Assembly (NCBI GenBank): GCA_039961635.1
Contig: JABRWB010000022.1
Span: 1 to 37,618, forward strand
Direction: 5' to 3'
Source of the DNA: a bacterium
GTDB taxonomy: Bacteria > 4484-113 > JAGGVC01
DNA: 37,618 nt
This document shows positions 1-20,970 of the stretch, in pieces (the first letter of the stretch is position 1; each line of letters opens with the position of its first letter). Both the position numbers and the translations under genes were made by a program. Below the pieces are notes generated by a model that saw only the letters and a program-made list of their open reading frames with translations, did no database searches and was not told the origin of the DNA.

Positions 1-184
1 TTTTGGTGTAACCTCCCCCGGTTTTCGCCGTTTTCGAGGTTACGGAAGCCGGCTGGAAGACGAAAACCGTCCGCTCCGCACGCTCCGGCGGCTTGCCGAA
101 CCGGACGATGCCGCGCTCCGCGTCGCGGTGGATGGGATAAAGCGCAATCGGGATCAAGGATGTGAAAGCAAGAAGGCATGTTAA
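1..184. other. Left-edge stretch, possible truncated gene, strand unresolved
   Basis: No gene is secure here. A plus-strand frame is open from base 2 to a stop at 182-184 and would be the last 60 residues of a gene entering from the left, overlapping the 3' end of the cyclase gene convergently by 4 nt. The opposite strand is also open from about 157 to the edge, with GC-rich third positions, and could be the start of a further minus-strand gene from a TTG codon. I recognise neither product. An 8-bp inverted repeat sits at 8-43. Confidence 0.25.
8..43. repeat. Inverted repeat, 8-bp arms, 20-nt spacer
   Basis: GTAACCTC at 8-15 is perfectly complementary to GAGGTTAC at 36-43. The spacer holds two direct TTTTCG copies. 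The total span of 36 bp is in the size range of a CRISPR repeat, but only one copy exists in the window and it may be coding, so I label it only as an inverted repeat. Confidence 0.35.
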
Positions 185-1236: not shown

Positions 1237-1240
1237 GACG

Positions 1241-2371: not shown

Positions 2372-2374
2372 TTT

Positions 2375-5082: not shown

Positions 5083-5120
5083 GCCCAACTCCTCCTAATC
5101 CCAATCGAGAACCGGCAGGG

Positions 5121-5909
5121 CTATGCCGCTCCCGGCCCGATTTCCTTACGCGAATCCCCGTGCAGCAAGGATTTGAACGGAATCACGTCGCCCCAGTCTT
5201 CCAATTTCCTTACCAAAATCGCTCCGTCAACGAACTTGATTTCCACGATATCCTTGGGCAAAACCATGACCTGTCCATAGCCGCGTGTTCCGCTTCCGCC
5301 CAAATATTCCGTTTCAAGCAGCGTCAGGCATTTGCTCAGAGCTTCGCAAAGCTCTTTGCCGTCGCCGTCCGTGTCCCAGATGGAAAGTACCATCTCGCAG
5401 GAAAACTCTGCCCCTCTAGGCACGCGTTCAAAAGTTCTGAGACCTCCGACTCGACTCACTCCACCAGTAAGTCGATCAATTGAGTTCTCGGTTTTTACTT
5501 CGCCAAATTGCGAATCCAAAAAAAACTCTGCACTCCTGAATTTCTCCCGTGATTCTATTGTAAGAAACGAATCTCGCACGGTAAGGCGCGATGGCCTTGC
5601 TCCAGCTTCCGGTTTATCGGCCGAAACTCCAAATAACATAGCCGAAACAGAATCTAGTTTCTGCGATGGGAGAGCGTTACCATTTGCATCAAGCTCGTAA
5701 TCTCCGCGCACACGCTCCAAACAACTTCGAAGCTTGCCTTTTAAGGACGAGCCGGGTATGTATGGCTCATTAGTTAATGGATCCCGAATCACCGGCGCGT
5801 CAATTGCTCCAATTGCAATGCCTGGATCCGACGCGCCGATGCGCATTCCGGTCAAAAGCTCGAGATTGAATCTGGCAACGATTTTCTTCGTTAATCTCGG
5901 TACGCCCAT
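5121..5909 (-). CDS. csm3: Csm3, type III-A backbone RNase subunit
   Basis: A 262-residue Cas7-family subunit. Copies of Csm3 polymerise along the crRNA and cut target RNA at 6-nt intervals. Diagnostic motifs are RIGASD at 23-28, AIGAIDAPVIRDP at 32-44, where D37 aligns with the catalytic Asp (D33 in Streptococcus thermophilus Csm3), PYIPGSSLKGKLR at 49-61, ENSIDRLTGG at 141-150, and LGGSGTRGYG at 203-212. All key residues look intact, so target RNA cleavage is predicted to work. ATG 5909 has AAGGAG seven bases upstream and lies 10 nt after the csm2 stop. The 5' half is noticeably AT-richer than the 3' end. Confidence 0.96.
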   Translation of the reverse strand: MGVPRLTKKIVARFNLELLTGMRIGASDPGIAIGAIDAPVIRDPLTNEPYIPGSSLKGKLRSCLERVRGDYELDANGNALPSQKLDSVSAMLFGVSADKPEAGARPSRLTVRDSFLTIESREKFRSAEFFLDSQFGEVKTENSIDRLTGGVSRVGGLRTFERVPRGAEFSCEMVLSIWDTDGDGKELCEALSKCLTLLETEYLGGSGTRGYGQVMVLPKDIVEIKFVDGAILVRKLEDWGDVIPFKSLLHGDSRKEIGPGAA

Positions 5910-5919
5910 TTCTTACTCC

Positions 5920-6300
5920 TTATTTCCTCGGCATGTAGGCCACAATTGTTTCGAAGGCTTCGACGAACCGGTTGAATTTGCCATCGTCCGTTCCCACTTC
6001 TTTCAACGCGGAAAGTATCTCTTTCTTAAACGAAATTACCGCATCGCGACTATCCTTGTTCTGTTCTATGTGACGCTCCAGTCGATAATGAATTCGGGGC
6101 TCCAGCAGCCTAAACTTGGTCCAGTCCCGCTTAACCTGGCCCATTGCATCAAGTCGCCGCACATGCCCGAAAATACCGCGAAGCTGCGTCATGGTGAATT
6201 TTCGCGACGCAAGCGAATTTGCAATGGCTTCGGCTTCTTGAATCATCTTTTCCGCCGAATCCGGGGTTGGCGAATTTCTAACATAATCAGCCAGCGACAT
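5920..6300 (-). CDS. csm2: Csm2, type III-A small subunit
   Basis: A 126-residue, mostly helical, basic protein of the size usual for Csm2, the small subunit that lines the crRNA-target duplex opposite Csm3. Residues 39-76 contain the recognisable core: LRGIFGHVRRLD followed by FRLLEPRIHYRLER. The start ATG 6300 lies inside the 3' end of cas10, overlapping by 14 nt, and its Shine-Dalgarno AAGGAGG is encoded in the last cas10 codons, so translation is coupled. Csm2, rather than Cmr5, together with the csm order marks the system as III-A. Confidence 0.92.
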   Translation of the reverse strand: MSLADYVRNSPTPDSAEKMIQEAEAIANSLASRKFTMTQLRGIFGHVRRLDAMGQVKRDWTKFRLLEPRIHYRLERHIEQNKDSRDAVISFKKEILSALKEVGTDDGKFNRFVEAFETIVAYMPRK

Positions 6301-9028
6301 CTTGAACCTCCTTTTCCTTCTTCACTTTATTTCTGCAAAAGTAATCCGCCCAGCGCACAATTGTGGCCAGGTATTCGATCGGCTGCCTGCCGTCCGGTCC
6401 GCCTGAAACCGTTTCGCGGCCGCTTGCACCGGAAGGCAAAAACACAGCCGAAAATTCGCGGGCCAGCGCGCCATCCGAACCGGAATCGCCTTCTTTTCCC
6501 TTCATCCTGGACAAAGAATATTCAAGCAGCGGCTTCCACCGGCCCGGATTGAAAAACTCAGGCCGCTCGGCCTGTTCGAATTCCCGCAGGTATTTTCTTC
6601 CGCGCAGATATGCAACGGCGACCTTGCCCAGCATGCGGATAAGCCCTTGATCTTTAATTTTTGCGGATACTTCCACAAGCTCTGCACGCTTTTTCCTGAT
6701 CCAATTCCACTCGTTCCAGGTTGCGGTGAAGTCCAGGAAATCCATCCTGTCCTTGCGGACCGGTCGATCCTTCTTAAGCGACCGTTCGAATTCCCGGCCA
6801 AGGTTTTTCGCCGCGCTTTCGGCGTCTCCTGCCCATTCCGATGCAACCGAGATCGGGAATTTTCCGCCCGCAAGCGCGATACCCGCCGAAAGCCCGACAT
6901 CCGCGTTCCGGCCCGTCCAACTTCGGAAGCAATCGCGAATCCGCATCGCGAGTTCCGGCATGACAAACCACGGCCCCACCAGGAACGCGTCGTCTCCGCC
7001 GGAGTAAATCGTGAACACAAGGTCGCCTGCGCGAATTTCTTCCTCGCCGTACTTAAACCGAAATTCATCGAGTATTATCGGGAGCAGGCCGCTGAAAAAC
7101 CTGACCAAAGAAGCCGAAAGCGACATCATCCGGCCCATTGAATACGCTTGGCGCTCCCCGGTTTCCTCGATAAGCTTGGACTTTTCGAATTCGTCCAGTC
7201 CTTTTGCCATAAGCCAACCGAGGTTGTCTACGTCCATTCGCAGCACGCCGATTCTGCCGAAGCCGGTTGTCAAGCAAGCCGCGGCGTCAAGTTCGTCAAA
7301 GGTGATCGGCCGTCGCTCATTATCGCTTTCGTCTTCGTCCAAATTTCTTTTTTCCCAAAGATCTTTCCAGAATTGAAGGCCGCCGCCCGCCTTTCCTTTC
7401 CAGGTAGGCGAATTCGCGCCCGCGTAGTATCTCAATCCGTCGCAGCCGCCGCGAATCGAGTTCAATCCGAACGAAAGGATCGCAGCGTTATCGCGGCCGC
7501 TTCCCGCAAATATCCACTCATCCGCGCCGGGCACCTTGATGGCATGTCCCGATTGCTTTCCGTAAACGACAATTCTGTCGGCGGAAGCCAGTCTTCGTCC
7601 GAGCTCTTCGAGGTCGCGATCGAATTCGGTTTCTTCCTTTCGATCCATCTCCCAAAACCTCGGATCGACAGCCTCGAAAAATCCGGCCTCCGCAGGCGGC
7701 CGCGACGATGCGCGCGGCAGTTCCTCGTCAAGCAATTTTTGAAGCTTCTTTCCGAATCCTTTGCTCATCAAGTCGGCTTGGGAAATCGGCAGACTCGCAA
7801 GCCTCAACGAAAGCGGGCAATCCGCTCCGGCGATTTCAGCTAATTCGTTGTTGGCGTTTCTTAGGAATTCTCCGATTTTTTCGACGCTGTCCTCAATATT
7901 CGGCAGCAATAAAAGGAATTTGCCGCCCGTCGCATATATCCGGCACGCTTTCGGCATGCCAAATTCCGCAGCCAGATTCGCGGCGAGCCTGTCCGCCCAT
8001 ACATCCACGAGAAAGCTTCTCGCCTTGAGTTGCCGCGATGCGCCCTTTGCCTCGATATCGGTGATGAACTTCTGTATCCCGGCCAAATCTCCGAGCGCTA
8101 TTCTGAAAAGCGCGCCGCCGCAACGTTCTTTTTCGATTTCACCGCACGGCCCGCCATTCCATTCGCGATTTTCCTTAAAACACTTTTCCGCTTCCTTTGC
8201 CAGATGCCCAAGCGCCGCGTCGCTTCCGAACAGCTCATCGAAATCACCGTCGCCGTCTTTGAAAAGCGCGCCAATCGCCGCCGCGATTATCGCCACCGCT
8301 TTCGAGTGATCAGCAAGGCTGATGTCGGAAAACGCGTTCGTGGCCGAGGGAACCGTCCATCCGTACCATTCCAGAAGCGCCGACGCTTTTTCAAGCGCGG
8401 CTTCCCTGTCATCGTTCCACTTGACGTCCTTCGACTCTTTTAACAAGCCCTCCCAAAGTTTTTGATATCCGGCCTGATTCACGTTGGTTTTGGACGGCGA
8501 TGTAAGCGCATCCAATTTGACGCCCTCGAATCCCGCGCACAGCGGCAGCACGGCTTCGTCGCCCGCTTTGATTGCGTTGTCCTTCAGCCTCAAAAGCGAC
8601 AGTACCGACACGAGCGCGCGCTCGCGCATTTGCTTGATATAGTCCGGCTGGGAATCGTCACAGTCTTTAATGCGATCCGCGGCGCTCGCAAGCCTGTCCG
8701 CGCGCGCGAGAATCCATTGCTCGAATGTCGAGGGTATGTGATGACCGAGCGCGATCCCCTCCACCCCTTTCCAACTCGCGCTTTTTCCAAGCCCGGATTC
8801 CAAAAGAAACTGGCCCGTATAAAGAACGTGGAAACGCGAAAAGCGGTTGTCGGAACTTGGTAGATACAGGGTTTGATATCCCGATGAAAGCACTTCGGGT
8901 GAAAGCCCTTTTTTATGCTCGCAAGCTCTTTGTCCGATTTTTCCCAAATCGTGAACGAGTCCGGCCATGCACAGCTTATGGCTGCGCGTCGGCAAATTCC
9001 GTCCAGCCGAGTCCACTTCCCCTTGCAT
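6287..9028 (-). CDS. cas10: Cas10 (Csm1), HD nuclease and cyclic oligoadenylate synthase
   Basis: A 913-residue large subunit of the Csm complex. When the complex binds target RNA, the HD domain cuts single-stranded DNA and the Palm domain turns ATP into cyclic oligoadenylates. The HD motif is VHDLGKIG (H26, D27), backed by GHH at 95-97 and the helix ADRLA at 110-114. The first Palm strand shows ATGGKFLLLLPN. The second Palm domain has SGGDDAFL, with GGDD at 677-680, so both activities look intact. I start at ATG 9028, which has AGGAG seven bases upstream; a TTG 39 nt further up would add 13 residues without a ribosome site. It is the first gene of the operon, about 70 nt downstream of a good promoter. 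It overlaps csm2 by 14 nt. Confidence 0.95.
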   Translation of the reverse strand: MQGEVDSAGRNLPTRSHKLCMAGLVHDLGKIGQRACEHKKGLSPEVLSSGYQTLYLPSSDNRFSRFHVLYTGQFLLESGLGKSASWKGVEGIALGHHIPSTFEQWILARADRLASAADRIKDCDDSQPDYIKQMRERALVSVLSLLRLKDNAIKAGDEAVLPLCAGFEGVKLDALTSPSKTNVNQAGYQKLWEGLLKESKDVKWNDDREAALEKASALLEWYGWTVPSATNAFSDISLADHSKAVAIIAAAIGALFKDGDGDFDELFGSDAALGHLAKEAEKCFKENREWNGGPCGEIEKERCGGALFRIALGDLAGIQKFITDIEAKGASRQLKARSFLVDVWADRLAANLAAEFGMPKACRIYATGGKFLLLLPNIEDSVEKIGEFLRNANNELAEIAGADCPLSLRLASLPISQADLMSKGFGKKLQKLLDEELPRASSRPPAEAGFFEAVDPRFWEMDRKEETEFDRDLEELGRRLASADRIVVYGKQSGHAIKVPGADEWIFAGSGRDNAAILSFGLNSIRGGCDGLRYYAGANSPTWKGKAGGGLQFWKDLWEKRNLDEDESDNERRPITFDELDAAACLTTGFGRIGVLRMDVDNLGWLMAKGLDEFEKSKLIEETGERQAYSMGRMMSLSASLVRFFSGLLPIILDEFRFKYGEEEIRAGDLVFTIYSGGDDAFLVGPWFVMPELAMRIRDCFRSWTGRNADVGLSAGIALAGGKFPISVASEWAGDAESAAKNLGREFERSLKKDRPVRKDRMDFLDFTATWNEWNWIRKKRAELVEVSAKIKDQGLIRMLGKVAVAYLRGRKYLREFEQAERPEFFNPGRWKPLLEYSLSRMKGKEGDSGSDGALAREFSAVFLPSGASGRETVSGGPDGRQPIEYLATIVRWADYFCRNKVKKEKEVQDVAG

Positions 9029-9103
9029 GTGCCTTCTCCTCAAATGAACCAAAGGCCATTTTCCCAATTACTCGGGTGAAGCCCATTGGACAGCCCGGAT
9101 GAC

Positions 9104-9132
9104 AAACTAGCGCTTTTTTACAACCTTGTCAA
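9104..9132 (-). promoter_or_regulatory. Sigma-70-type promoter of the csm operon
   Basis: Read on the minus strand, TTGACA (9127-9132) is followed after exactly 17 nt by TAGTTT (9104-9109). Transcription should start near 9097, giving a leader of about 70 nt before the cas10 ATG. The -35 box is perfect, unlike most housekeeping promoters in this window. Confidence 0.65.
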
Positions 9133-9292
9133 CACATTCAAAAACAAGTTCAATGCATTGCGCTTTCAAGCGGCTTGCGACATTCGCTTTTCTTTGAAAG
9201 TGAAATATTGAACGTACGGCTGACGCAACAATTCAAGTTTCGGCAGGTCGCGGCGCGATTTTCTCCAAAGAGCTTGAATATTTGGAATTAAA

Positions 9293-9310
9293 GCCCCTCG
9301 GTTGAGGCGC
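9293..9310 (-). terminator. Possible weak terminator after the last ASST-like gene
   Basis: GCGCCTC/GAGGGGC arms (one mismatch, 4-nt loop) are followed on the minus strand by CTTTAATT. The T-tract is poor. It lies between the stop of the ASST-like gene and the csm promoter, where a terminator would be expected. A second stem, GCCGCC/GGCGGC at 9351-9371, has no T-tract. Confidence 0.3.
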
Positions 9311-9380
9311 GTTAATTTTCGTCGGAAATATCGCAATCCAAAGTAACGCAGCCGCCGATTTCCTTGGCGGCCGAATGCGG

Positions 9381-12182
9381 TCAGCTTCCCAGGGCGGAAA
9401 GCCCCGGATAGTCCGGGGTGTACCTTATCGCCTTGAAAAGATCGAACGGCTCGCCCGCCTGCCACCTGCAATCGAACTCCCACGTTGTTTCGCCCATCGG
9501 GTTGACTTCAAAAATCCGGTTCTGAAGCGCGCTGCATATCAGCGTGTTCCCTCCGGGAAGCCTTTGCGCACTGCCCATGAATTGCGAATGAAAATCCCCG
9601 AGCGGATTGGATAAATACTGCCAAGCCGGTTCCGCCGGCCCGTAAACTCCGTCCGTCAAATAGTAGCTTCCGTCGGGATTCAGCGGCGTTGCGAGCTGGA
9701 CGACCGACGAAAACGACTCCCCGCCCAGCGTTCCCGCGTTGTTGTTGAACACGAGCAAATTTCCTGCCCCGTCGAGACCGTCTTCGATCCAGTACGGATT
9801 GTGCTGACCGAACAGCCTTTGACTGCCCGGCCCGCCCGCGCGGTAGTTCTGCGGATTTCCCCACCGGTAAAGTATGTCTCCGCCCCGGCCGTATCTTCCG
9901 CCCGTGTGCCCGGCGGCCTCTTCCATCGTGGTTGAGTGGTCTATCACCCAGATTTCGCTCAAGTCGCGAGGGCTTACCGCGATTTGGTCAAGCTCCGCGT
10001 TGTACGACACCGTGTTTATGTGCGTCCAGTCGAGCGTGCAATCCAGCCTTAAGTTGAAATCGATCAACTCGGGATGCTCCGCGGGATTTCCATAGTTGGC
10101 CTTCGAAGGATCGTAGTCCTGAACGAGATGATCCCATGCTTTCCATTCCCAGACGACCTCCCCGCCGTCGGGAAGTACGGGTTCTATTTCGACTATCGAA
10201 TCCACCCACATTCCGTACTGGGATATACCGGCGGGATTCCTTCCCGCGTCAACCGCATCCTGCCGGGAGTACGCGTTCCAGACTATCAAAAGCACGTTCC
10301 CGTTGGGCAGCCTTTCGAATTGATGATGGCAGCATCGCTCCCAGTCGTAAAGCTCGTACGACCAAACCAGGTTTCCGTCCCAGTCGTACTCCTCGATTCT
10401 TCCGGCCTTGCCCATCCCGTTGAACCAAAAACCGCCCACGTATCCAAGCCGAAGCAAATGGCCGGTTTCCTCAAGCTCCGCTGAAAGCCCCGGATAGTAA
10501 TTGCTGTCCCATGTGTGGACGGGATTTCCATCCATATCGATCAAATACGTTCTCTTTTCGCCGAGCGGCGCGACCAAAGTGTATCCGTCCGCGGATTCGG
10601 GAATTACCGACACGACGAAATTGTGCAACGACGAGCCGCAATGATTTTCGACCAAAAGGCTCGCAGCGTAATCGCCGGGCGCGTCCGTCAGCCGGACGGA
10701 CGGCTGTGCGCTGTCAGCCGAGTCGGGGATTCCCGCTTCCCCGAAATTCCAGGTATAGTCGAACGGCGCATCGCCCTCCACTTCCGCGGCGAACACGAGG
10801 ATTTGACCGGCCATTCCCAAAGAGGGAGAAACCGACAGGATTTCAGGAACCGCACCGACGCCCACCGAAAACTCGAACTCGGTGCTTCCACAATCGTTAA
10901 AAACCGTCACACTCGCGGGATAATCGCCGGGGACGGCCGTAAGGGTCACCAGCGGACGCTCTTCGTCGGAGGTATCGGGCGTTGCAGCGTCTCCGAAATT
11001 CCAGAAATATGTGAACGGCCCGGCGCCTTCCACCTCCGCGGTGAATCGAACATCCTCGCCGGGCGCGCCTCCACGCGGATTTACGCGCGACAGAGCCGGC
11101 GCGGCTTTTACTTCAAGAAACCATGCGAACGTGTCGCTAGAGTAGTTGTTCGAAACCGTCACGCTCGCCTCGTACACGCCGGGCGCGGTCGAAAGAACCA
11201 CAACCGGCGCCGCATCCGTCGAAGTGGCCGGTTGCGCTCCCCCCCCGAAATCCCATTCGTACGTGAACGGTCCCGCGCCGGCGGTCAGCTCCGCTTCGAA
11301 CCGCACCTCCGTTCCCGGCAGGCCGCAAAGCGGAGACACGCCGGCGATCGAGGGGCCGTCCCTTCCCCCCAGATGGAAAGGCGCGCTCGATGTAAATTCG
11401 CATGCCCCGTCGGCGTCCCTCAACCCGAAGTAATACTCTCCCGAAGGAAGACCATGGCCGCCCGGGGAGATCTCGACACCTGTCCAGCCGTAATGCGAAC
11501 TGGATTGGTCGAGATTCATGACGAGCGGGAGCTCGGACTCATCCGCGGGATCAAACGACGCGGTTCCGAAGTAAAGAGCCGCCGTTTCCCATTTTTCTTC
11601 CTGCCAGGAATAAAACGGGGGAACATCGTAAATCCCGAATTGAATTTTGTACCTGGCGCCGAAATTGAGTGCGATGGTGGTCACGTCTCCCACGCCGATT
11701 TCGCCCGAGCCGTCGCCGTCAATGAATTTTTCCACGATGTCGCCTTCGCCGTCGGTGACCGACCGCATAAATCGAAGAGCGACAGGAGTTATGTCGGAAA
11801 CGGAAACCTCCCCGTCAAGGTTGTAGTCGCCGGGCAGAAAATAGCGCCACGAAACGGAATAAGTTCCATCCCCGTTGGAAACCGATTCAAGCATCAGAGG
11901 CGGGGACTGCGGCGGCAGCTGCGAAGAAGTTCTGCCGTTCGCGATTTCGCCCAATTCCGATAAGAGCCTTTTGGAAAGCAGGGAAAAAACCTTCGGATCG
12001 GCGCCGTCTGGAACAGCCATCCGGGACAGCTCCGTTTGCGCAACCCGGAAATGATTTCCCGCGTCCGCCGCGGCGCTTCGGCCCGGGCTCAATCCATCCG
12101 CCTTGCAACCGGCGAGCAACACCGCCAACGCCAACAGCGAAAGCGCCCCGTTGCACCGAATTCGAATCGCCCCAACCGCCAT
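9381..12182 (-). CDS. Lipoprotein with dockerin-like pair, three PKD-like repeats and ASST-type domain (paralogue A)
   Basis: A 933-residue exported lipoprotein. The lipobox VLLAGC puts the lipidated Cys at residue 26 when ATG 12182 is used; ATG 12239 would add 19 residues. Neither start has a clear ribosome site. Residues about 118-176 hold two calcium-loop repeats of dockerin type (DYNLDGEVSVSD and DGDGSGEIGVGD). Three PKD-like units follow at about 279-360, 362-443 and 444-527, each with a Y-x-W-[DN]-F-G core. Residues 531-933 match an arylsulfotransferase (ASST)-like propeller: LIDMDGNPVHTW, HH at 619-620 followed by LPNGN, DWTHIN, DHSTT and QHNPYW. Known ASSTs move sulfate between phenols through a catalytic His; whether this one does is unknown. 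A G8 tract lies in PKD1. It is the most diverged of the four copies. Confidence 0.85.
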   Translation of the reverse strand: MAVGAIRIRCNGALSLLALAVLLAGCKADGLSPGRSAAADAGNHFRVAQTELSRMAVPDGADPKVFSLLSKRLLSELGEIANGRTSSQLPPQSPPLMLESVSNGDGTYSVSWRYFLPGDYNLDGEVSVSDITPVALRFMRSVTDGEGDIVEKFIDGDGSGEIGVGDVTTIALNFGARYKIQFGIYDVPPFYSWQEEKWETAALYFGTASFDPADESELPLVMNLDQSSSHYGWTGVEISPGGHGLPSGEYYFGLRDADGACEFTSSAPFHLGGRDGPSIAGVSPLCGLPGTEVRFEAELTAGAGPFTYEWDFGGGAQPATSTDAAPVVVLSTAPGVYEASVTVSNNYSSDTFAWFLEVKAAPALSRVNPRGGAPGEDVRFTAEVEGAGPFTYFWNFGDAATPDTSDEERPLVTLTAVPGDYPASVTVFNDCGSTEFEFSVGVGAVPEILSVSPSLGMAGQILVFAAEVEGDAPFDYTWNFGEAGIPDSADSAQPSVRLTDAPGDYAASLLVENHCGSSLHNFVVSVIPESADGYTLVAPLGEKRTYLIDMDGNPVHTWDSNYYPGLSAELEETGHLLRLGYVGGFWFNGMGKAGRIEEYDWDGNLVWSYELYDWERCCHHQFERLPNGNVLLIVWNAYSRQDAVDAGRNPAGISQYGMWVDSIVEIEPVLPDGGEVVWEWKAWDHLVQDYDPSKANYGNPAEHPELIDFNLRLDCTLDWTHINTVSYNAELDQIAVSPRDLSEIWVIDHSTTMEEAAGHTGGRYGRGGDILYRWGNPQNYRAGGPGSQRLFGQHNPYWIEDGLDGAGNLLVFNNNAGTLGGESFSSVVQLATPLNPDGSYYLTDGVYGPAEPAWQYLSNPLGDFHSQFMGSAQRLPGGNTLICSALQNRIFEVNPMGETTWEFDCRWQAGEPFDLFKAIRYTPDYPGLSALGS

Positions 12183-12277
12183 CAAATTCGAACCATCTAT
12201 CGCGCGGCTGCAGGAACGCCGCACGCGGACTTTCTCCATCCGGACGAATACCCCGCCGCGCCCGGATGCATGGGATG

Positions 12278-12309
12278 TTTATACCTCAAAACCCCAAAAA
12301 AATATTCAA
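12278..12309 (-). promoter_or_regulatory. Possible promoter of paralogue A
   Basis: On the minus strand TATAAA (12278-12283, preceded by GG) is the -10 candidate. TTGAAT (12304-12309) lies 20 nt upstream, which is too far for an ideal -35. Transcription would start near 12272, upstream of both candidate ATGs. Confidence 0.35.
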
Positions 12310-12409
12310 GTTCCCAATGAGCCCCGCATGGACTCGGCCGCCCCGCGCGCGGCCCGCCCGAAATCCGCCCAAGCCGCGGCACCGCCGCACACCCGGCCTT
12401 AGCCGTCGG

Positions 12410-15220
12410 TCACTGCTCCAGCCGGGCAAGGCCCGGAAAGTCCGGCGTGTACCTGAACGCCTTGAAGATGAATCCCGGGCTGCCCGACGGGAACTGGTTG
12501 TCGTATTCCCAGACGATTTCGCCGTCCATCGTAGCTTCGAACAGCCACCTCTGCAGTGAACTGGTCACAAGAGTGTTGCCTCCCGGCAGTCTCTGCGCGC
12601 TGGACATCAGCTGGCTGTAAAAAAGATTGGGCGGATCGGAGATGAACTCCCAGGTTGGCTCGCTCGGTCCGTAGAATCCGTCGGTCATGTAGTAACTGCC
12701 GTCCGGATTAAGCGGCGTCGTTATTTGTACAACGGAAGAGTAAGGTTGGCCGTCGAACGAACCCGGCTGATTGTTCAGAATCAGAATGTCGCCTTCGCCT
12801 TCCAGGCCGTCGGGAATCCAGTAGGGATCGTGCTGATAAAAAAGCTTGTGATCTTCTGCGGCGCCCTTTTTGTAGGATGCCGGGTTTCCCCAGCGGTAAA
12901 TCAGGTCGCCGCCCCTGCCGTACCGCCCGCCGGTGTGGCCGGCCGCTTCTTCGGTAGTGGTCGAATGGTCTATGACCCAGATTTCGCTGATCGAATGCGG
13001 GCTGATCACGATTTGGTCCAAGTCCTCGTTGTACGCCACCGCATTCACGTGAGTCCAGTCAAGCGGCGAGCCGGGGCTTAGATTTATGTCAATCAGCTCC
13101 GGATGTTCGGCGGGATCTCCGAAGTTGTTCTTGGTGTCGTCGTAGTCCTGGATCAGATGATCCCACACGTACCATTCCCAGACGATCTCGCCGCCGGAGG
13201 TTCCGACGGGCTCGATCTCGGCGATCGAGTCCGCCCAGAATCCGCGCATGCTGGTATATGAAGGATTTCTGCCATGTTCTATCGCCTCGTCGCGCGTGTA
13301 CAGGTTCCATACGATCAACAGAATGTTGCCGTTGGGCATCAGCTCGAAGTCGTGATGGCAGCACTGGGTCGAGCTGCTAAGCTCGTAGTACCATACCAGA
13401 TTTCCGTCCCAGTCGCGCTTTTCGATCCTGCCGGCGCTCCCCCCCCCGTTGAAAGTTGGATTGTTTATGTTGCATAGCCGGTACATGTATCCGTCCGCGG
13501 ACAGCTCCACCGCGGCTCCCGGATAGTAGTCCGCCGTCCAATCGTGGACAACGTTCCCGTCCATGTCTATAAGGTACGTTTTATTGTCGTTCATCGGCGA
13601 AAACAGCGTGAATCCTTCGCTTCCGAGCGGAATCACTTTCAGCGTGAAATCGTAACTGAAGCTGCCGATGTTGTTGGAAACGGTCAGGTTCGCAGCGTAA
13701 TCGCCGGGCAAATCGCCGAAAGTCACTTGCGGGTTTTCATCGGCGCTGGAATTTGGAACCGCCCCCCCCCCGAAATTCCAGGAGAACGCAAAAGGAGGGT
13801 CGCCGGAAACGTCCGCCGAAAGCGCGCCGGGTAGCCCCGACATCCCGATTAGAGGGCTTACGCCTGTGACCACCGGAGGATCGCCCACGCCCAGAATCCA
13901 TTCATATGTGTCGCTTCCGTACACGTTGGTCACCGTCAGGCTCGCAAAGTAGCTTCCTTTTGCGTCGGCAAGGCTGACCGTGGGGCTTTGAGCATCCGAA
14001 AGAGCCGGGGTCGCCCCGCCTCCGAAATCCCACGAGTACGTGAACGGCTGCTCTCCCGCGACTTCCGCCGAAAACGTCACCGGCTGGCCCGGCGTTCCGC
14101 CTATCGGAGAGACAGAATTGATAACCGGAACTTCGCCGACCGTAAGTTCCCATTCGAATGTGTCGCTCCCGTAGGCGTTGGAAATCGTCACGCTAGCTTG
14201 ATATGCGCCCTTGGCCGCCGCGAGCGTCACTATCGGGCTTTGCTCTTCTGAATGATCGGGATTTGCGCCGCCGCCGAAATTCCAACTGTAACTGAGCGGC
14301 TCGGCGCCCGAAAGCAGATCGGCGTAGAATTGAACCTGCAAGCCCGGCGAGCCGCTGGTCGGGCTCACGGCCGCGATTTCCGGATCGTCCCTCCCGGTCA
14401 GGCTGAACTTGTCGAAAGACACGAATTTGCACGGGTCGCTTAAATCCCGGACTCCGAAATAGTAATCGCCGGATGTCAGCGCCGCTGCGTCGATATCGAA
14501 ATCAAGGCTCAACCAGCCGTATTTCGGATTGGCGGGATCCAGGTTGACGGCGGGCTTCACAGTCCCGGGAGAATCCGATATCAACGCGGCGGTAACGATT
14601 GCCGCGGCTTTTTCCTGCCAGTTCGAAAGCGTCCACGCCGAGCTGGGCAATTCCTCGAAAATTGCGGCAACAACGTGATATGAAGCAAGGTAATTAAGGG
14701 CGATCGGGGTGATGTCGCTCACTCCGATTTCGCCGGACAGATCTCCGTCAATGAACCGCTGGACGTTGTCCGCATTGCCGTCGGAAACTGACTGAAGGTA
14801 GTTGAGCGCAATTGGAGTGATGTCGGCAACCGACACTTCCCCGTCAAGGTTGTAGTCGCCTTGGTGGTAGTATTTCCACGCGAAGTTTCCAATTCCGTCT
14901 CCCAAATCGGTGAAGACCAGGAAAAGGGGCGGGCTTGCGGGGGCGGCCTGCGACGGCAGACGGCCCTCTTCCCTCGCTCGTATTTCCTCCACCAGCTTGT
15001 CCGCCAGCAGCTTGAAGACCTTCGGGTCGACGCCGTCCGGCGGCTCGTAAGCCGAAAGGTCGTGAAGCACGGCGTCGGAAAGCGAAACCTCGGCCTGCGG
15101 CGTCAGCCCCCCGCCTCCGCTCGCGCCGCCGCGGAAATTGCGGGAGCATGCGGAGAGCGAAACGGCGGCGAGAAGAACAATCAAAACAGACAAAATTATT
15201 GAAGAATTAAAGCGGATCAT
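12410..15220 (-). CDS. Lipoprotein with dockerin-like pair, three PKD-like repeats and ASST-type domain (paralogue B)
   Basis: A 936-residue lipoprotein. ATG 15220 has GGAG seven bases upstream. The signal ends in lipobox SLSAC (C25). The dockerin-like pair spans 121-177, with loops beginning D122 and D158. A small beta domain at about 180-275 ends in YYFGVRD. The PKD-like units are at about 280-362, 366-447 and 448-530. The ASST-like domain is 535-936, with H622-H623 before LMPNGN, DWTHVN (H724), IDHSTT (H752), GHTGGRYGRGGD and QHDPYW (H797). These conserved His residues probably line the active site by analogy with ASST families. G10 and G9 tracts lie in PKD3 and early in the ASST domain. 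It has its own promoter, so it can be expressed apart from copies C and D. Confidence 0.87.
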   Translation of the reverse strand: MIRFNSSIILSVLIVLLAAVSLSACSRNFRGGASGGGGLTPQAEVSLSDAVLHDLSAYEPPDGVDPKVFKLLADKLVEEIRAREEGRLPSQAAPASPPLFLVFTDLGDGIGNFAWKYYHQGDYNLDGEVSVADITPIALNYLQSVSDGNADNVQRFIDGDLSGEIGVSDITPIALNYLASYHVVAAIFEELPSSAWTLSNWQEKAAAIVTAALISDSPGTVKPAVNLDPANPKYGWLSLDFDIDAAALTSGDYYFGVRDLSDPCKFVSFDKFSLTGRDDPEIAAVSPTSGSPGLQVQFYADLLSGAEPLSYSWNFGGGANPDHSEEQSPIVTLAAAKGAYQASVTISNAYGSDTFEWELTVGEVPVINSVSPIGGTPGQPVTFSAEVAGEQPFTYSWDFGGGATPALSDAQSPTVSLADAKGSYFASLTVTNVYGSDTYEWILGVGDPPVVTGVSPLIGMSGLPGALSADVSGDPPFAFSWNFGGGAVPNSSADENPQVTFGDLPGDYAANLTVSNNIGSFSYDFTLKVIPLGSEGFTLFSPMNDNKTYLIDMDGNVVHDWTADYYPGAAVELSADGYMYRLCNINNPTFNGGGSAGRIEKRDWDGNLVWYYELSSSTQCCHHDFELMPNGNILLIVWNLYTRDEAIEHGRNPSYTSMRGFWADSIAEIEPVGTSGGEIVWEWYVWDHLIQDYDDTKNNFGDPAEHPELIDINLSPGSPLDWTHVNAVAYNEDLDQIVISPHSISEIWVIDHSTTTEEAAGHTGGRYGRGGDLIYRWGNPASYKKGAAEDHKLFYQHDPYWIPDGLEGEGDILILNNQPGSFDGQPYSSVVQITTPLNPDGSYYMTDGFYGPSEPTWEFISDPPNLFYSQLMSSAQRLPGGNTLVTSSLQRWLFEATMDGEIVWEYDNQFPSGSPGFIFKAFRYTPDFPGLARLEQ

Positions 15221-15266
15221 GGCACAACTCCAAAAATCAAACGACGATTAAAAATGATGGAATAAT

Positions 15267-15295
15267 ATTGTATCGAAACCGGAATGAAATTTCAA
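15267..15295 (-). promoter_or_regulatory. Sigma-70-type promoter of paralogue B
   Basis: On the minus strand TTGAAA (15290-15295), a 17-nt spacer and TACAAT (15267-15272) form a near-consensus promoter. Transcription should start about 40 nt before the paralogue B ATG at 15220, and the leader carries its GGAG site. Confidence 0.7.
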
Positions 15296-15370
15296 CGCCG
15301 CGCATCCGCACGGAAGCAAGGCCGGATCCGGCCCGTTCCGATGATTCCCCCGAATGTACGACGGTTAATT

Positions 15371-18181
15371 TCATTGCCGCCTCAACCGCTCCAGTCCGGG
15401 GTAATCCGGCGTGTAACGCCTTGCACGGAAAACGTGCGCCGGCAATCCGTCGGGAAACCGGTTGAAATACTCCCAAACGATCTGCCCGGAAGGATCCACC
15501 TCGAAAATCCAGGCCTGCTCCGCGCAGCAAATCAGCGTGTTCCCGCCGGGCAGCCTGTATGCGCTCGACAAAAGCAGGCTGAACATTGATTCACGCGGCT
15601 GCGCCTCGTACTCCCAAACCACGCCGGAGGGGCCGAATCTGGAACCGCCCAGTGGATAGCTTCCGTCCGGATTTATGGGCGGGCTGAATTCGACAACCGT
15701 GGAATAGGGCGGATTCTGCAAATCCGTAATGCCCACCTGGTTGTTGAAAACAAGTATGTTTCCTTCTCCGGGATATCCCTCCTTTATCCAGTTGGCGTTG
15801 TGCTGATAGTAAAACATCCTGTCCGAATCCGAGCCTGCGCGGTATGCGGCCGGATTGCCCCATCGGTAAAGGATGTCGCCGCCGCGCCCGTACCGTCCGC
15901 CCGTATGTCCCGCAGCCTCTTCAGTCGTCGTCGAATGGTCTATGACCCAGATTTCGTTGAACGCGTGTACGCTGATCAGGATTTGGTCGAGGTCTTCATC
16001 GTATTCGACCGAGTTGATATGCGTCAGCTCCAGCGTCGCGTTGGGATCGTAGTTTATATCGATCAACTCCGGGTGCGCCCCTGGATCTCCGTAGTTGTTT
16101 TTGGAAGGATCGAAATCCTGGATCAGGTGGTCAAGGGAATTCCACTCCCATACCACTATTCCGCCGTTCGCCCCTACCGGCTGAATTTCCCGAATCGAAT
16201 CGAACCACATGCCCAACTCGGAAATGTTGGCCGGATTCCGCCCGGCTTCGGTTGCTTCCTCCGCCGTATAAGCGCTCCAGACAATTACGAGTACGTTGCC
16301 GTTGGGCATTTGCTTTACGTCATGGTGGATCAATTCCTCGGTCGTGGAAATCTCGTGGCTCCACAACAGGTTGCCGTCCCAATCGAACTTTTCCAGCCTG
16401 CCGCCGTTGACCATTCCGAACGGGTGCTCCTCGGTGTTGCAAATCCGCAGCAGCTCGCCGCCCTCCGTCAACTCGCAGCTGAAAGCGGGGATATACTGGC
16501 TCGTCCAGTAATGCACCACCTCTCCTTCCATATCCACCAAGTATGTTTTGTCTCCAATCAATGGCGCATAAAGCGTGTAACCGTCGCCCGAAAGCGGGAT
16601 AACTTCCAGCGTGAAGTCGTACCTGTCGCTTCCCGCCGGATTTGACACCGTGAGACTCGCGGAGTAATTGCCCGGATTCGGCCCGAAATCGACCACGGGG
16701 CTTGAATCCTGGCTTTCATTCGGGGACGCTCCCCCGCCGAAGTCCCAGTGGAAAGCAAGCGGCTGGTCGCCCGAAACCTCCGCCGCGAACTTCCCCGGCA
16801 TCGTGGCCATCCCGATATCGGGAGCAACACTTTCGATTTCCGGCGGATCGCCGATAAACACCGAAAATTCAATCGAATCGGAGCCGTATTCGTTCGAAAC
16901 CGTCAAGCTGGCTTCATATTCGCCTTTCACAGTGGTCAGCGTCACGGCAGGGCTTGGTTCACCGGATTGCTGCGGTTCCGACAAAGTCCCAAACCGCCAG
17001 TCGAACAGGAAGGGCGCCTCGCCCGTCACCTCCGCCTCGAACGCGGCTGTGCTTCCGGGCTTTCCGGATTTGGGCGAAATTGAAATAATCGAAGGCGCTT
17101 CCCCGACCCGAAGTTCCCACTGATAAGTATCGCTTCCGAACGCGTTGGAAACCACCACAAACGCAGGGTAAACTCCGGTCTCGGTGGTCAGGGCCACCAG
17201 CGGCAGCTCGTCCATTGAAGTGTTCGGAACCGCCCCTCCGCCAAAACCCCAAAAATAGCTGAAAGGACCAGTACCGGATTCCAGATCCGCGTAAAATTGC
17301 ACCTGGGATCCCGGCAAACCCCCGCGCGGCGACACGGATGCTATCTTCGGCAAATCGCGCCCCGAAAGGCTGAACACATCCGAGGAAGCAAATCGCGGCG
17401 GCTGTGCGGCATCCCGCACCGCAAAGTAATATTCTCCCGTCGAAAGCCCGGCCGCGTCGATGTCGAATGCAATACTCGCGCGGCCGTATCCGGTGTCCGA
17501 CGCTTCGCGGTTGACGTTAACTTCCTGCCAGCCCGACTGCGGCTGTATCATCGAGGCGTACGTGCCCGACAACGAGCCGCTCTCCCACTCTTCCAACGAA
17601 GCGTTCGCCGCGGGAGCGCTTGTGTAAATTCCCGCGTAGATTTCATACTTCGCCTGATAGTTGAGAGCAATGGGAGTCACGTCGCTGACACCAATTTCGC
17701 CGGATAGATCGCCGTCAATGAACCGCTGGACGTTGTCCCGGTTTCCGTCAGTAACGGATTCGAGATAATTCAGCGCGATCGGCGTGATGTCCGCAACGCT
17801 TACTTCCCCGTCCAGGTTGTAATCTCCGGGCAGGTGATACCGCCAGGAAAATTCCGCGGTCCCCTCCCCCTTATCCTCCACCAGAAGCTGAAGCGGCGGA
17901 CTGGCAATCTTCGCCTGCGACAGTGATCTGCCTTCCTCGTTCGCGGCCAGCTCCAGGACGAGCTTGCGCGCGAGCATTTCGAAGAGATGCCGGTCAACGC
18001 CTGCGGGAAGATTGTAAGAATCTATATCGGCGATCGCCGCGTCCATCGGGGAGACGCGGGGCGAAATCGCGGAATCCACGCGCGGGCTCCGGCCGCCCAG
18101 GGCGCGCGAGCAGCCGAAATCCGCCGCCGCCGCAAGCGACAAAAGCAAAACAATAACCGCGATTCTGACTCCGGCCATCAT
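15371..18181 (-). CDS. Lipoprotein with dockerin-like pair, three PKD-like repeats and ASST-type domain (paralogue C)
   Basis: A 936-residue protein starting ATG-ATG at 18181, where the ATGA overlap with the stop of paralogue D indicates coupled translation. An upstream frame to 18424 is only read-through inside gene D. The signal ends in ADFGC (C24), a less canonical lipobox. The dockerin-like pair is at 119-175 (DYNLDGEVSVAD; DGDLSGEIGVSD). Three PKD-like units and an ASST-type C-terminal domain follow in the same order as in the other copies. The Cys-Cys pair that precedes the His-His motif in copies A and B is replaced by LI here, while HHD and MPNGN remain. The GHTGGRYGRGG block is unchanged. 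The protein is surface-anchored; its substrate is unknown. Confidence 0.86.
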   Translation of the reverse strand: MMAGVRIAVIVLLLSLAAAADFGCSRALGGRSPRVDSAISPRVSPMDAAIADIDSYNLPAGVDRHLFEMLARKLVLELAANEEGRSLSQAKIASPPLQLLVEDKGEGTAEFSWRYHLPGDYNLDGEVSVADITPIALNYLESVTDGNRDNVQRFIDGDLSGEIGVSDVTPIALNYQAKYEIYAGIYTSAPAANASLEEWESGSLSGTYASMIQPQSGWQEVNVNREASDTGYGRASIAFDIDAAGLSTGEYYFAVRDAAQPPRFASSDVFSLSGRDLPKIASVSPRGGLPGSQVQFYADLESGTGPFSYFWGFGGGAVPNTSMDELPLVALTTETGVYPAFVVVSNAFGSDTYQWELRVGEAPSIISISPKSGKPGSTAAFEAEVTGEAPFLFDWRFGTLSEPQQSGEPSPAVTLTTVKGEYEASLTVSNEYGSDSIEFSVFIGDPPEIESVAPDIGMATMPGKFAAEVSGDQPLAFHWDFGGGASPNESQDSSPVVDFGPNPGNYSASLTVSNPAGSDRYDFTLEVIPLSGDGYTLYAPLIGDKTYLVDMEGEVVHYWTSQYIPAFSCELTEGGELLRICNTEEHPFGMVNGGRLEKFDWDGNLLWSHEISTTEELIHHDVKQMPNGNVLVIVWSAYTAEEATEAGRNPANISELGMWFDSIREIQPVGANGGIVVWEWNSLDHLIQDFDPSKNNYGDPGAHPELIDINYDPNATLELTHINSVEYDEDLDQILISVHAFNEIWVIDHSTTTEEAAGHTGGRYGRGGDILYRWGNPAAYRAGSDSDRMFYYQHNANWIKEGYPGEGNILVFNNQVGITDLQNPPYSTVVEFSPPINPDGSYPLGGSRFGPSGVVWEYEAQPRESMFSLLLSSAYRLPGGNTLICCAEQAWIFEVDPSGQIVWEYFNRFPDGLPAHVFRARRYTPDYPGLERLRRQ

Positions 18182-20970
18182 TGCTGTCTCAGACGCGCGA
18201 GTCCCGGATAATCCGGCGTATAACGCGTCGCCCTGAAAACCTGGGACACCACTCCTTCGGGAACGTTGACATCGTAATTCCAGACTATGGTCCCCGACTT
18301 GGTGACTTCGACAATCTTGCGGGGAAACGCGCTGCATATCATCGTATTTCCTCCGGGCAGCCGCTGAACGCTGGACAAAAGCTGGCTGAAAAGAAGCATG
18401 GGCGGGTCGGGAATGAACTCCCATTCCGGTGCAGGCGGACCGAACACCCCGCCGGCGAAATTGTAAACGCCTTCCGAAACGGTGGCGGGAGTCATTTCAA
18501 TGGCGCTTGAATAAGGCATTCCGTCTATCAACCCCGGCTGGTTGTTGAAAACCGTGATGTTGCCGCCCCCTTCCAAATCGTAGGCCACCCACTGCGCGTC
18601 ATGCTGCCAGAAAAGATACTGGCTGGCAACATCGTCCGCGCCGTACGCAGCCGGATTTCCCCATCGGTACAGCAGGTCGCCGCCCCTGCCGTATCTTCCT
18701 CCAGAATGACCGGCCGCTTCTTCGGTCGTAGTGGAGTGATCGATTATCCATATTTCGCAGTACGCGTGGACGCTGATTAGAATTTGGTCGAGCCGCTCGT
18801 TGTAGCTGACCGAGTTGAAATGCGTGAGTTCCAGCTGGGCGTTCAAGTCGTAATTGAAGTCCACAAGCTCCGGATGGTCGTCCGGATTGCCGTAATTCGG
18901 TTTCGCGGGATCGAAATTCTGAACCAGGTGGTCGAACACCTTCCATTCCCAAACGACGTTGGCATCGTCAGTGCCGACGGGCTGAATCTCCTTGATCGAA
19001 TCCAGCCACATTCCGCCGCCGGAAACCCCTTCGGGATTCCTTCCGGCCGCGATCACCTCTTCCGGGGAGTATACGTTCCAGACTATCACCAGAAGATTGC
19101 CGTTCGGCATCAGCGTGAAATCATGGTGGGAAATGTGCTTCGGCCCTTGCACTTCGCATGACCATACGAGGTTTCCGTCCCAATCGCGCTTCTCAATCCT
19201 CCCCGCTCCCCCGGCTCCGAACTGGGATTGCTCTAGCTGGCACTGCCGGTACAAATATCCGTCCGGCGAAAGAAGCGCGCTGAAGGAAGCGGGATAATCG
19301 CTTGTCCATGAATTTGCGACATTTCCGTCCATATCGATCAGAAAAGTATCGTTCACTTTGACCGGCGCAATCAGCGTGTACCCGTCGCCTGATAGCGGAA
19401 TGACTTCGAATTCGAATTCGAGCGTGTCGCTTCCGGCGGGATTGGAAACCGTCAGGCTCGCGTTGTATACGCCCGGATGCGGGCCGAATGTCACCGGCGG
19501 GCTTTCTTCCGCGCTTGCATCCGGCTGCGCCCCGCCCCCGAAATCCCAGTCGTATGTCAGCGGCGCATCGCCGGATACCTCCGCCTCGAACGTCCCATTG
19601 CGCGTCGCCATCCCTATGTCCGGAGTTACTCCGGTTATCTCCGGTGGATAGCCCACGTAAATCGAAAAGTCGAAAGTGTCTACTCCGTATTCATTCGTCA
19701 CCGTCAGGCTCGCCGGATATTCGCCTTTCGAATCCGTGAGCGTAACCGAGGGGCTTTCTTCATTGGATACGGCCGGGCCGGCGGCATCGCCGAACCGCCA
19801 TTCGTATGCGAGCGGCGGCTCCCCTGCGACGACGGCGGAGAACTCCGCAATCGCTCCCGGCCTGCCGGTAAGCGGCGTTACGGATTCGATCGAAGGCGCG
19901 TTTCCCACACCCAGCACCCACTCGTACGTGTCGCTCCCGTACGCATTCGTGACCGTAACGCTCGCGTTGTAGCTTCCCGTCGTTTGCGAAAGCGTCACGA
20001 GCGGCAGCTCCTCGCTGGATGCGTTCGGCGCGGCTCCCCCGCCGAAGTCCCACTCGTACGTGAACGGCGGCGTTCCGGCCGACACGTCGGCATAAAACTC
20101 CAAGTTCGTTCCGGGAATCCCGCCCGATGGATTAACGGACGCGATTTCCGGAATATCCCGCCCCGAAAGGCTGAACACGTCCGCCGAAGCAAACCTTGGC
20201 GGATTCCCCGCATCCCGCACTCCGAAGTAATACGTCCCTGAGGTCAGCCCTGCCACATTCATGTCCACCGCAAGCGCAGCGAATCCGTAGTCCGTCGCCG
20301 ATTCGCTCCGGTTGACTTCCAGTGCAGCAGCCTCCGGATCCGCGGGAGTCAGCGCCGCAACCGCGCTGAACACCGCATTGGCACGCCATTCGTCCGAAGT
20401 CCAGTTCGACGCGGGCGCCGACCGGAAAATCCCGCAAATCACCCGGTAATTCGACTGAAAGTTGATGGCGATGGGAGTCACATCGCTAACGCCGATCTCG
20501 CCCGAAAGGTCGCCGTCTATGAACCGCTGCACGTTGTCCCGGTTCCCATCCGTAACCGACTGCAGGTAGTTCAGCGCAATCGGCGTGATATCGGCCACTC
20601 CCACTTCTCCGTCCAGGTTGTAATCCCCCGGATGGTGGTAGCGCCAGGAAAAGTCCGCCGTACCGTCCCCGTTGTCAGAAACTTGAAGCATAAGGGGCGG
20701 CGATGCGATCACCGCTTGTGATTTGGAGCGTCCAACCTCAAACGCCTCCAACTCGGATAGAAGCCGCCCGGCAAGCATAGAAAACAACCCGTCGTCCACA
20801 CCGGCGGGCACCGCATACCCGGCCACCTCAATCCTGGCCGATTCAAGCAGAGATTTGGCAACATCAGGCAATGCGGAATCACGGCCCAATCGGCCTCTTC
20901 CCCCGCACCCCAGTAAAAAAGACGCGCACGCGATAAGCGCGCAAGCCGCCATGAATCGGAGGCAAGCCAT
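18178..20970 (-). CDS. Lipoprotein with dockerin-like pair, three PKD-like repeats and ASST-type domain (paralogue D)
   Basis: A 930-residue protein, first of the cluster in transcription order. ATG 20970 has AGGAG eight bases upstream, and a TATAAT -10 lies about 30 nt before the start. Lipobox FLLGC gives C22. The dockerin-like pair is at 115-171, followed by a beta region, three PKD-like units with FGGGA or FGDAA cores, and the ASST-type domain with SHHDF, LMPNGN, HFN, DHSTT and QHDAQW. In the region after DHSTT it reads GHSGGRYGRGG rather than GHTGG. It is followed without a gap by paralogue C. The function is inferred only from the domain family. Confidence 0.86.
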   Translation of the reverse strand: MACLRFMAACALIACASFLLGCGGRGRLGRDSALPDVAKSLLESARIEVAGYAVPAGVDDGLFSMLAGRLLSELEAFEVGRSKSQAVIASPPLMLQVSDNGDGTADFSWRYHHPGDYNLDGEVGVADITPIALNYLQSVTDGNRDNVQRFIDGDLSGEIGVSDVTPIAINFQSNYRVICGIFRSAPASNWTSDEWRANAVFSAVAALTPADPEAAALEVNRSESATDYGFAALAVDMNVAGLTSGTYYFGVRDAGNPPRFASADVFSLSGRDIPEIASVNPSGGIPGTNLEFYADVSAGTPPFTYEWDFGGGAAPNASSEELPLVTLSQTTGSYNASVTVTNAYGSDTYEWVLGVGNAPSIESVTPLTGRPGAIAEFSAVVAGEPPLAYEWRFGDAAGPAVSNEESPSVTLTDSKGEYPASLTVTNEYGVDTFDFSIYVGYPPEITGVTPDIGMATRNGTFEAEVSGDAPLTYDWDFGGGAQPDASAEESPPVTFGPHPGVYNASLTVSNPAGSDTLEFEFEVIPLSGDGYTLIAPVKVNDTFLIDMDGNVANSWTSDYPASFSALLSPDGYLYRQCQLEQSQFGAGGAGRIEKRDWDGNLVWSCEVQGPKHISHHDFTLMPNGNLLVIVWNVYSPEEVIAAGRNPEGVSGGGMWLDSIKEIQPVGTDDANVVWEWKVFDHLVQNFDPAKPNYGNPDDHPELVDFNYDLNAQLELTHFNSVSYNERLDQILISVHAYCEIWIIDHSTTTEEAAGHSGGRYGRGGDLLYRWGNPAAYGADDVASQYLFWQHDAQWVAYDLEGGGNITVFNNQPGLIDGMPYSSAIEMTPATVSEGVYNFAGGVFGPPAPEWEFIPDPPMLLFSQLLSSVQRLPGGNTMICSAFPRKIVEVTKSGTIVWNYDVNVPEGVVSQVFRATRYTPDYPGLARLRQQ

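Follow-up and report, generated by a model that had tools for sequence, protein, structure and literature searches.

Two described sulfotransferases, the arylsulfate sulfotransferase (ASST) of E. coli CFT073 and Cpz4 of caprazamycin biosynthesis, provide the closest solved folds for the proteins considered here. In the review PMC13426309, the E. coli enzyme (AssT; PDB 3elq) is described as periplasmic, with one disulfide and the DsbL/DsbI system; its His436 is transiently sulfated, and His252, His356, Asn358, Arg374 and Thr501 are the pocket residues. The same review gives an antibiotic sugar as the acceptor of Cpz4. Cpz4 (PDB 9kf4, 9kf6) works independently of 3'-phosphoadenosine 5'-phosphosulfate (PAPS) and is a single chain of 453-472 residues, mostly propeller (aligned residues 72-454). 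The window analysed here is the 37,618-nucleotide contig JABRWB010000022.1, which corresponds to the whole of contig C22 in a draft genome of 2.78 Mb (GCA_039961635.1; 96% complete) from the bacterial phylum 4484-113. Within positions 9381-20970 its minus strand carries four head-to-tail open reading frames (ORFs) of 930-1017 residues, each ending in an ASST-type propeller. Unlike E. coli AssT, these proteins are lipid-anchored on PKD stalks, and they share no cysteine column; unlike Cpz4, they place the propeller at the end of a long multidomain chain.

Taken together, the data favour, with a probability of about 0.6, four lipid-anchored, surface-facing, PAPS-independent sulfotransferases of the ASST/Cpz4 superfamily, carried on PKD stalks above a phylum-specific, dockerin-bearing base. 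The proposed path to this arrangement is that tandem duplication, local and within a single lineage of an uncultured diderm phylum, gave four copies of one build: a lipid anchor; a fibronectin type III (FN3) domain holding a dockerin pair; three PKD domains as a stalk; and the catalytic propeller. The stalks would hold the propellers off the outer membrane. There, in a ping-pong reaction, an aryl sulfate would donate its sulfuryl group to the His436 equivalent, with the equivalents of His252, His356 and Asn358 holding it in place, and a hydroxyl acceptor at the cell surface would then receive the group. The base is a standard mount for dozens of lipoproteins in the phylum, and the architecture of the four proteins is one case of a phylum-wide design.

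The propellers belong to the ASST superfamily, as established by Pfam and by the fold of copy 1, the copy that was modelled. PF05935 matches all four copies at 34-77 bits (cut-off 24.2), its only matches in the whole genome, and PF14269 matches all four at 30-46 bits (cut-off 27). The copy 1 propeller, predicted from an alignment of 58 sequences, has a predicted local distance difference test score (pLDDT) of 93.7 and a predicted template modelling score of 0.93. Its best alignment in the PDB is to Cpz4 (9kf6; Z 32.7, 329 residues, 3.1 Å, 20% identity), followed by E. coli ASST (3elq; Z 27.3, 321 residues, 2.9 Å); the next entries are clearly lower (3no2, of unknown function, Z 22.7; megalin propellers, 22.5). 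In sequence-profile comparison, 3elq is matched at E 1.1e-12 and Cpz4 at E 0.03. Cpz4 and the window copies have in common the QHD stretch with the catalytic histidine, the GD..(Y/W)R.G stretch and LPNGN. The original prediction, made from the sequence alone, had described four tandem copies of one architecture with an ASST-type propeller, and both parts are borne out: each of the four ORFs also contains three PKD stretches (PF00801; E 2.8e-18 or better).

Residue positions were assigned on the AssT numbering, which was verified on the aligned 3elq chain. Equivalents of His252, His356, Asn358 and His436 are present in all four copies and are invariant in the 58-row alignment. Among 118 related propellers of named genomes, the four positions are kept in 117, 117, 117 and 116, respectively. 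These relatives come from the best 80 of 204 loci, collected with patterns that exclude the catalytic motifs; they represent 127 propeller ORFs minus three short envelopes, the four window copies and two merged duplicates, and one of the 118 is a gap at these columns. Some loci overlap on one contig, and a few of the 118 may be partial views of one gene. Judged by these aligned residues, the ASST catalytic histidine and most of the sulfate pocket, on which the original prediction hinged, appear to be in place. The motifs that it had listed as common to all copies fared unevenly: HH, DHSTT and GGRYGRGG are found in four of four, and DWTH occurs only in copies 1 and 2, with ELTH in copies 3 and 4. 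The tryptophan of DWTH is present in 114 of the 118 relatives and is leucine in copies 3 and 4.

Below the stalk, a dockerin-like pair and then a beta region had been proposed as successive domains. Instead, the two form one FN3 domain with the dockerin pair inside it, in the loop between the second and third strands, and the supposed beta region is the second half of the interrupted domain. Across 67 ORFs of the genome, the sequence generally reads ..V.DL.Y.....LSWTY.N before the dockerin and V.GY.V.TS......V.P.D..G..G..SN after it, which we take to be the signature of FN3 strands A-B and C-G. Profiles were built from 60 of the 67 ORFs (alignment A6; six were too short after the dockerin and one odd sequence was dropped) or from 61 (A7), and the dockerin was excised from 29 of the 61. 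At E <=1, the 15 PDB sequences found with the intact 60-row profile carry names of cellulosomal chains with dockerins or of calcium-binding EF-hand proteins, and none is named FN3; the top match (E 8e-4) is 4fl4_A, an 88-residue dockerin chain. Once the dockerin is excised, the profile matches FN3 chains: 3mpc (E 1.2e-4), 1k85 (0.0018), 5g56 (0.0037), titin (0.5) and fibronectin (0.93), with the first three alignments spanning the junction. Some of its 15 PDB rows are not named FN3 (galactose oxidase, a DUF3472 protein and endo-beta-N-acetylglucosaminidase). As a control, the second half alone reaches 3mpc at 0.088 and 5g56 at 1.0, loses 1k85 and has a tail fibre protein as its best row. Because 3mpc improves from 0.088 to 1.2e-4, joining the halves gains about 9 bits on this FN3 chain.

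Other comparisons of the base are less decisive. Those by profile-profile alignment, by structural model and with Pfam Dockerin_1 weigh against the overall explanation, but the profile-profile and Pfam fn3 tests neither prove the interruption of the FN3 domain nor speak against it. In profile-profile comparison the excised module matches six FN3 repeats with P 0.002 (38 columns), and a PKD control does equally well (P 0.0017, on 15 linker columns); the intact module gives P 0.097. The structural model of the N-terminal module is poor, with pLDDT 59 and most of the insert below 40. In this model the strands flanking the insert together align, as a single sandwich, to one-domain targets (Z <=7.0); these include FnIII domains (insulin receptor, integrin beta 4) and also SKICH and helicase sandwiches. 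Pfam fn3 gives a weak signal, reaching 3 of 29 excised modules (best E 0.0059) as against 0 of 60 intact ones. Finally, Pfam Dockerin_1 recognises no more than 8 of the 60 modules (best E 0.0025), and at E <=1 it is not listed for any window copy searched as a whole protein. The calcium loops are those expected of a dockerin. Type I dockerins carry F-hand calcium loops with Asp at position 1, Asp or Asn at position 3 and Asp at position 12. Here, Asp1 and Asp12 are present in both repeats of all 60 modules, and position 3 is Asp or Asn in 58 (repeat 1) and 57 (repeat 2). Just after the loops of repeats 1 and 2 stand Thr (59 and 57), Pro (59 and 50) and Ala (60 and 59). In literature searches combining dockerin and FN3 with insertion, lipobox and cohesin, the arrangement is not described in the titles or abstract openings of the best matches (the top 2 of 2, 15 of 213 and 10 of 461), and the words fibronectin and dockerin are absent from a 2026 survey of domain insertion (PMC13114784). 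A dockerin nested in FN3 was thus not found described, and a prior description may exist.

This base is widespread in the genome. A profile of the four N-terminal parts yields 71 matches, and among the 67 distinct dockerin-pair ORFs examined a strict lipobox lies upstream in 54, as against 5 of 65 control ORFs (long, non-overlapping, dockerin-free ORFs of the same stretches, which are not verified genes). By the classical rule, Asp after the lipobox Cys leads to inner-membrane retention. As Asp follows the Cys in only 1 of 54, retention of the module lipoproteins at the inner membrane would not be expected, and since Omp85 is present in all ten genomes of the phylum, the phylum is diderm. When 289 genomes were searched with the module profile at E 1e-8, all 10 genomes of the phylum gave matches and none of the 279 others did; at most 11 candidates were scored per genome, and the counts are floors. 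At E 1e-3, the four-row profile gives 71, 40, 23, 45, 67, 39, 67, 81, 51 and 1 matches in the ten phylum genomes. Among these, G009 (same class, family f4) has few and weak module copies and no cohesin match, which makes it a natural contrast for the system.

What the base carries varies. Named parts of 61 of the 67 module proteins, in the 25 of 41 families shown, include PKD (32), ASST (4, those of the window), multihaem cytochrome (2), cohesin (2 at this threshold), PQQ/BamB-type propellers (2) and subtilase (1). The base of the sulfotransferases is most closely related to proteins of C96 and C1 of this genome and to three G001 proteins, which have PKD domains but no ASST match; the payload is thus exchanged on a constant base. 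NCBIfam models run on ten proteins gave nothing near cut-off, mostly weak PKD-type matches. One member on G000 contig C13 (L112:7551-9788, plus strand) is a lipoprotein with the FN3-dockerin base and a multihaem cytochrome part, matched by decahaem NCBIfam models far below cut-off; it is possibly involved in extracellular electron transfer. ASST-type propellers that have not been studied, from Verrucomicrobiota, Planctomycetota, Hydrogenedentota, Bacteroidota, Ignavibacteria and Thermoplasmatota, are 40-52% identical to those of the window and keep the same His set, but among 123 propeller ORFs in the named loci the dockerin model matches none and the PKD model two. Only 2 of 40 named genomes with a propeller match the module, and there the match is limited to the dockerin part and its edge.

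Dockerins ordinarily call for cohesins. As in cellulosomes and in the non-cellulosomal systems of Cloacimonadota (PMC8542988) and ANME archaea (PMC9012536), the genome encodes many dockerin and fewer cohesin proteins. The Pfam cohesin model matches in 9 of 10 phylum genomes, the exception being G009, which is also the poorest in dockerin modules. In the PDB, an alignment of 13 cohesin matches retrieves cohesins that are mostly cellulosomal (best E 7.5e-9); over this whole genome the Pfam model itself gives three weak matches. In 10 of the 67 module ORFs a cohesin precedes the dockerin (core model cut before the FN3 part), nine having one cohesin and one a second after the dockerin; one of the ten had itself contributed to the training alignment. 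Sorted by the spacing between lipid anchor and dockerin, the ten comprise 8 of the 17 ORFs in which it exceeds 125 residues, 0 of 37 in which it is shorter and 2 of 13 without a called lipobox. These fusions recall adaptor scaffoldins and the Coh-Doc units of clostridial scaffoldins with separate FN3 repeats, as described in PMC4959524 and PMC11557425, respectively. In the present system, by contrast, the dockerin interrupts the FN3 domain near the lipoprotein N-terminus, cohesins are mostly single (1 of the 10 ORFs has two), and no glycoside hydrolase is among the 25 of 41 families shown for 61 of the 67 ORFs. Two small lipoproteins with one cohesin and no module, L150:1656-2270 (plus strand; little else besides the cohesin) and L149:1578-2363 (plus strand), are candidate receptors for the dockerins. 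No cohesin is seen in the four sulfotransferases.

The module dockerins probably bind cohesins of the same genome, which would group proteins on the surface. Weighing against this, the dockerin proteins are themselves lipid-anchored and do not need docking for attachment. A serious competing explanation, short of an even chance, is that the pair has no docking role and is an insert stapled by calcium, which would stiffen the FN3 domain and tie the folding of the exported lipoprotein to calcium. The predicted lipid anchors in 54 of the 67 proteins, the position of the insert inside another domain and the constancy of Asp1 and Asp12 in both repeats of the 60 modules would all suit such an insert. 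It leaves less room for the cohesins of nine phylum genomes, present here both alone (L149, L150) and in the ten fusions, and for the residues kept after the loops, whose conservation perhaps exceeds what stiffening needs. If docking is the function, a bolder and more doubtful extension can be drawn: a self-assembling outer-membrane lipoprotein network, in which dozens of dockerins per genome sit in the FN3 B-C loop, some of the proteins have an added cohesin between the anchor and the FN3 domain, and pairing of cohesins with dockerins builds chains or a lattice into which enzymes are plugged. Sulfotransferases, multihaem cytochromes and proteases would then be plugged-in parts of an assembly comparable to the cellulosome, but lipid-anchored, poor in scaffoldins and equipped with a nested docking domain. 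The base matters more than the enzymes: a dockerin nested in FN3, repeated in 67 ORFs and confined to the phylum among the genomes searched, points together with the cohesins to a surface assembly system.

The sulfotransferase assignment must also be weighed against several observations. The Arg374 site is Arg, His, His and His in copies 1-4, and the Thr501 site is Met, Met, Leu and Leu, so that Arg374 is kept in one copy and Thr501 in none. In PMC13426309, a figure legend describes conservation of the identified active-site residues across all published enzymes of the family that were compared. Solved relatives share only about 14-20% identity. No cysteine column common to the four copies was found in their alignment, and a disulfide like that of E. 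coli ASST was rejected on this ground. The lipobox, which had been claimed for all copies, is present in copies 1, 2 and 4 and is non-canonical in copy 3. Neither a sulfatase nor the DsbA- or DsbB-like genes that the original prediction thought worth seeking are reported in the 20 neighbouring ORFs scanned, which are part of the window ORFs, and no donor-making gene was seen next door.

Several of these observations would fit an alternative regarded here as unlikely: that the propellers are non-catalytic or catalyse another reaction, with the histidine cluster binding metal, sulfate or sugar in stalked adhesins or substrate-binding proteins. The altered Arg374 (three of four) and Thr501 (four of four) sites and the lack of any solved enzyme closer than about 20% identity allow it; PKD stalks and surface display suit adhesion, and among the named parts of lipoproteins on the same base PKD and Ig-like domains occur most often (PKD in 32 of 61). 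Mere binding would scarcely require that His436 and its three partners be kept in every copy and in 116-117 of 118 relatives from many phyla, and the two closest solved folds are both sulfotransferases. The two altered sites also vary among those relatives (74 Arg, 20 His and 18 Gln at the Arg374 site; one Thr at the Thr501 site), so that the four residues for chemistry are kept and these two sites are variable across this branch. As Arg374 and Thr501 are not kept, the propellers are filed in the ASST superfamily by Pfam and fold, and not with the studied cluster I/II enzymes (EcAST/DhAST type).

The four copies are neither a chance resemblance nor a recent assembly duplicate: any two of them are 52-60% identical over the propeller, 48-60% over the PKD domains, 43-59% over the N-terminal module and 66-88% over the dockerin pair. 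Since four genes of like design lie next to one another, one might suspect a young array, or an error of assembly, in which the same enzyme is repeated redundantly; this idea is refuted by propellers only 52-60% identical, saturated synonymous sites and the ELTH shared by copies 3 and 4. For the propellers, the ratio of nonsynonymous to synonymous substitution rates (dN/dS) is 0.14-0.26 in the five of six pairs for which it is computable, with dS at least 1.55, that is, saturated. With this qualification, the tandem copies appear to be under purifying selection, in support of the selection for function that had been proposed. The accompanying claim, that other parts diverge around the kept ASST core motifs, finds no clean contrast, the dockerin pair being more conserved than the propeller.

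In a tree of 60 propellers the copies form one clade (support 100/92), within which copies 1 and 2 (99/85) and copies 3 and 4 (100/93) pair. Different acceptors or donors are likely for the two pairs, because they differ in the pocket (DWTH or ELTH; Arg or His at the Arg374 site). That they act on different sulfated or phenolic substrates, as the original prediction ventured, is conjecture. The array is useful in that few natural substrates of PAPS-independent sulfotransferases are known and that differences between pockets can be compared in four divergent paralogues lying side by side. The number of copies in related genomes, a comparison proposed with the original prediction, is 4, 1 and 1 in the three of ten phylum genomes with a propeller. 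The single propellers of G005 and G006 adjoin the four-copy clade on long branches, and their proteins have a lipobox but no match to the dockerin or PKD models. On this basis, and as far as ten genomes show, it was in the lineage of this genome that the propeller was joined to the dockerin base and multiplied to four copies. A viral origin was considered and rejected, as no relative was found among viral contigs. Elsewhere, 10 of the 123 propeller ORFs in named loci exceed 1600 residues, and one of 2800 residues (L073:1359-9758, plus strand) has three propeller matches.

Table 1. Coordinates of the four sulfotransferase genes, their domains and other features of the window.
Feature	Position	Strand	Remarks
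ORFs as called	9381-12239, 12410-15220, 15371-18424, 18178-20970	minus	
Copy 4 (P0004, 930 residues)	18178-20970	minus	transcribed first; lipobox LLGC (Cys22), dockerin-interrupted FN3, three PKD, ASST propeller
Copy 3 (P0003)	15371-18181	minus	likely start Met82; architecture as copy 4; lipobox DFGC non-canonical; ORF from first ATG 15371-18424
Copy 2 (P0002, 936 residues)	12410-15220	minus	lipobox LSAC; architecture as copy 4
Copy 1 (P0001)	9381-12182	minus	likely start Met20 (ORF to 12239); lipobox LAGC; architecture as copy 4
Dockerin pair, copy 4	20440-20628	minus	within FN3 domain
Dockerin pair, copy 3	17639-17827	minus	
Dockerin pair, copy 2	14672-14860	minus	
Dockerin pair, copy 1	11643-11831	minus	
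FN3 halves, copy 1	first about 11832-11906, second about 11367-11642	minus	
Three PKD domains, copy 4	19405-20154	minus	stalk
Three PKD domains, copy 3	16604-17353	minus	
Three PKD domains, copy 2	13637-14386	minus	
Three PKD domains, copy 1	10608-11357	minus	
ASST propeller, copy 4	18181-19404	minus	ELTH instead of DWTH; His at Arg374 site
ASST propeller, copy 3	15374-16603	minus	ELTH; His at Arg374 site
ASST propeller, copy 2	12413-13636	minus	DWTH; His at Arg374 site
ASST propeller, copy 1 (modelled)	9384-10607	minus	His639, His740, Asn742, Arg758, His813 equivalent to His252, His356, Asn358, Arg374, His436
Fifth dockerin-module lipoprotein, cut by contig end	36857-37618	plus	dockerin 37295-37513
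Type III CRISPR-Cas operon	181-9067	minus	Cas10/Csm1, Csm2, RAMPs, Cas_APE2256 protein, TPR protein (weak nucleotide-cyclase match)

The copies are transcribed in the order 4, 3, 2, 1 (Table 1). Copy 3 most likely starts at Met82 (18181) rather than at 18424, because the ATG of Met82 overlaps the TGA stop of copy 4 (ATGA). This overlap, together with the remaining gaps of 150 and 170 nucleotides, makes a single operon plausible. Promoter and terminator scans stayed at chance level, and no RNA family reached its gathering score in the window.

On one side the array borders the CRISPR-Cas operon; the genes beyond its other end are mostly of housekeeping type. No CRISPR array was shown by a repeat search of positions 1-12000. 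A dedicated sulfation locus was considered and rejected, the 20 scanned neighbours being CRISPR-Cas and mostly housekeeping-type genes; sulfatase matches number two in the whole genome, one of them barely over cut-off. Same-strand runs of module ORFs less than 1 kb apart also occur elsewhere in the genome, with two ORFs on each of the G000 contigs C11, C37, C21 and C79 and three on C5; the window array of four is the longest such run seen.

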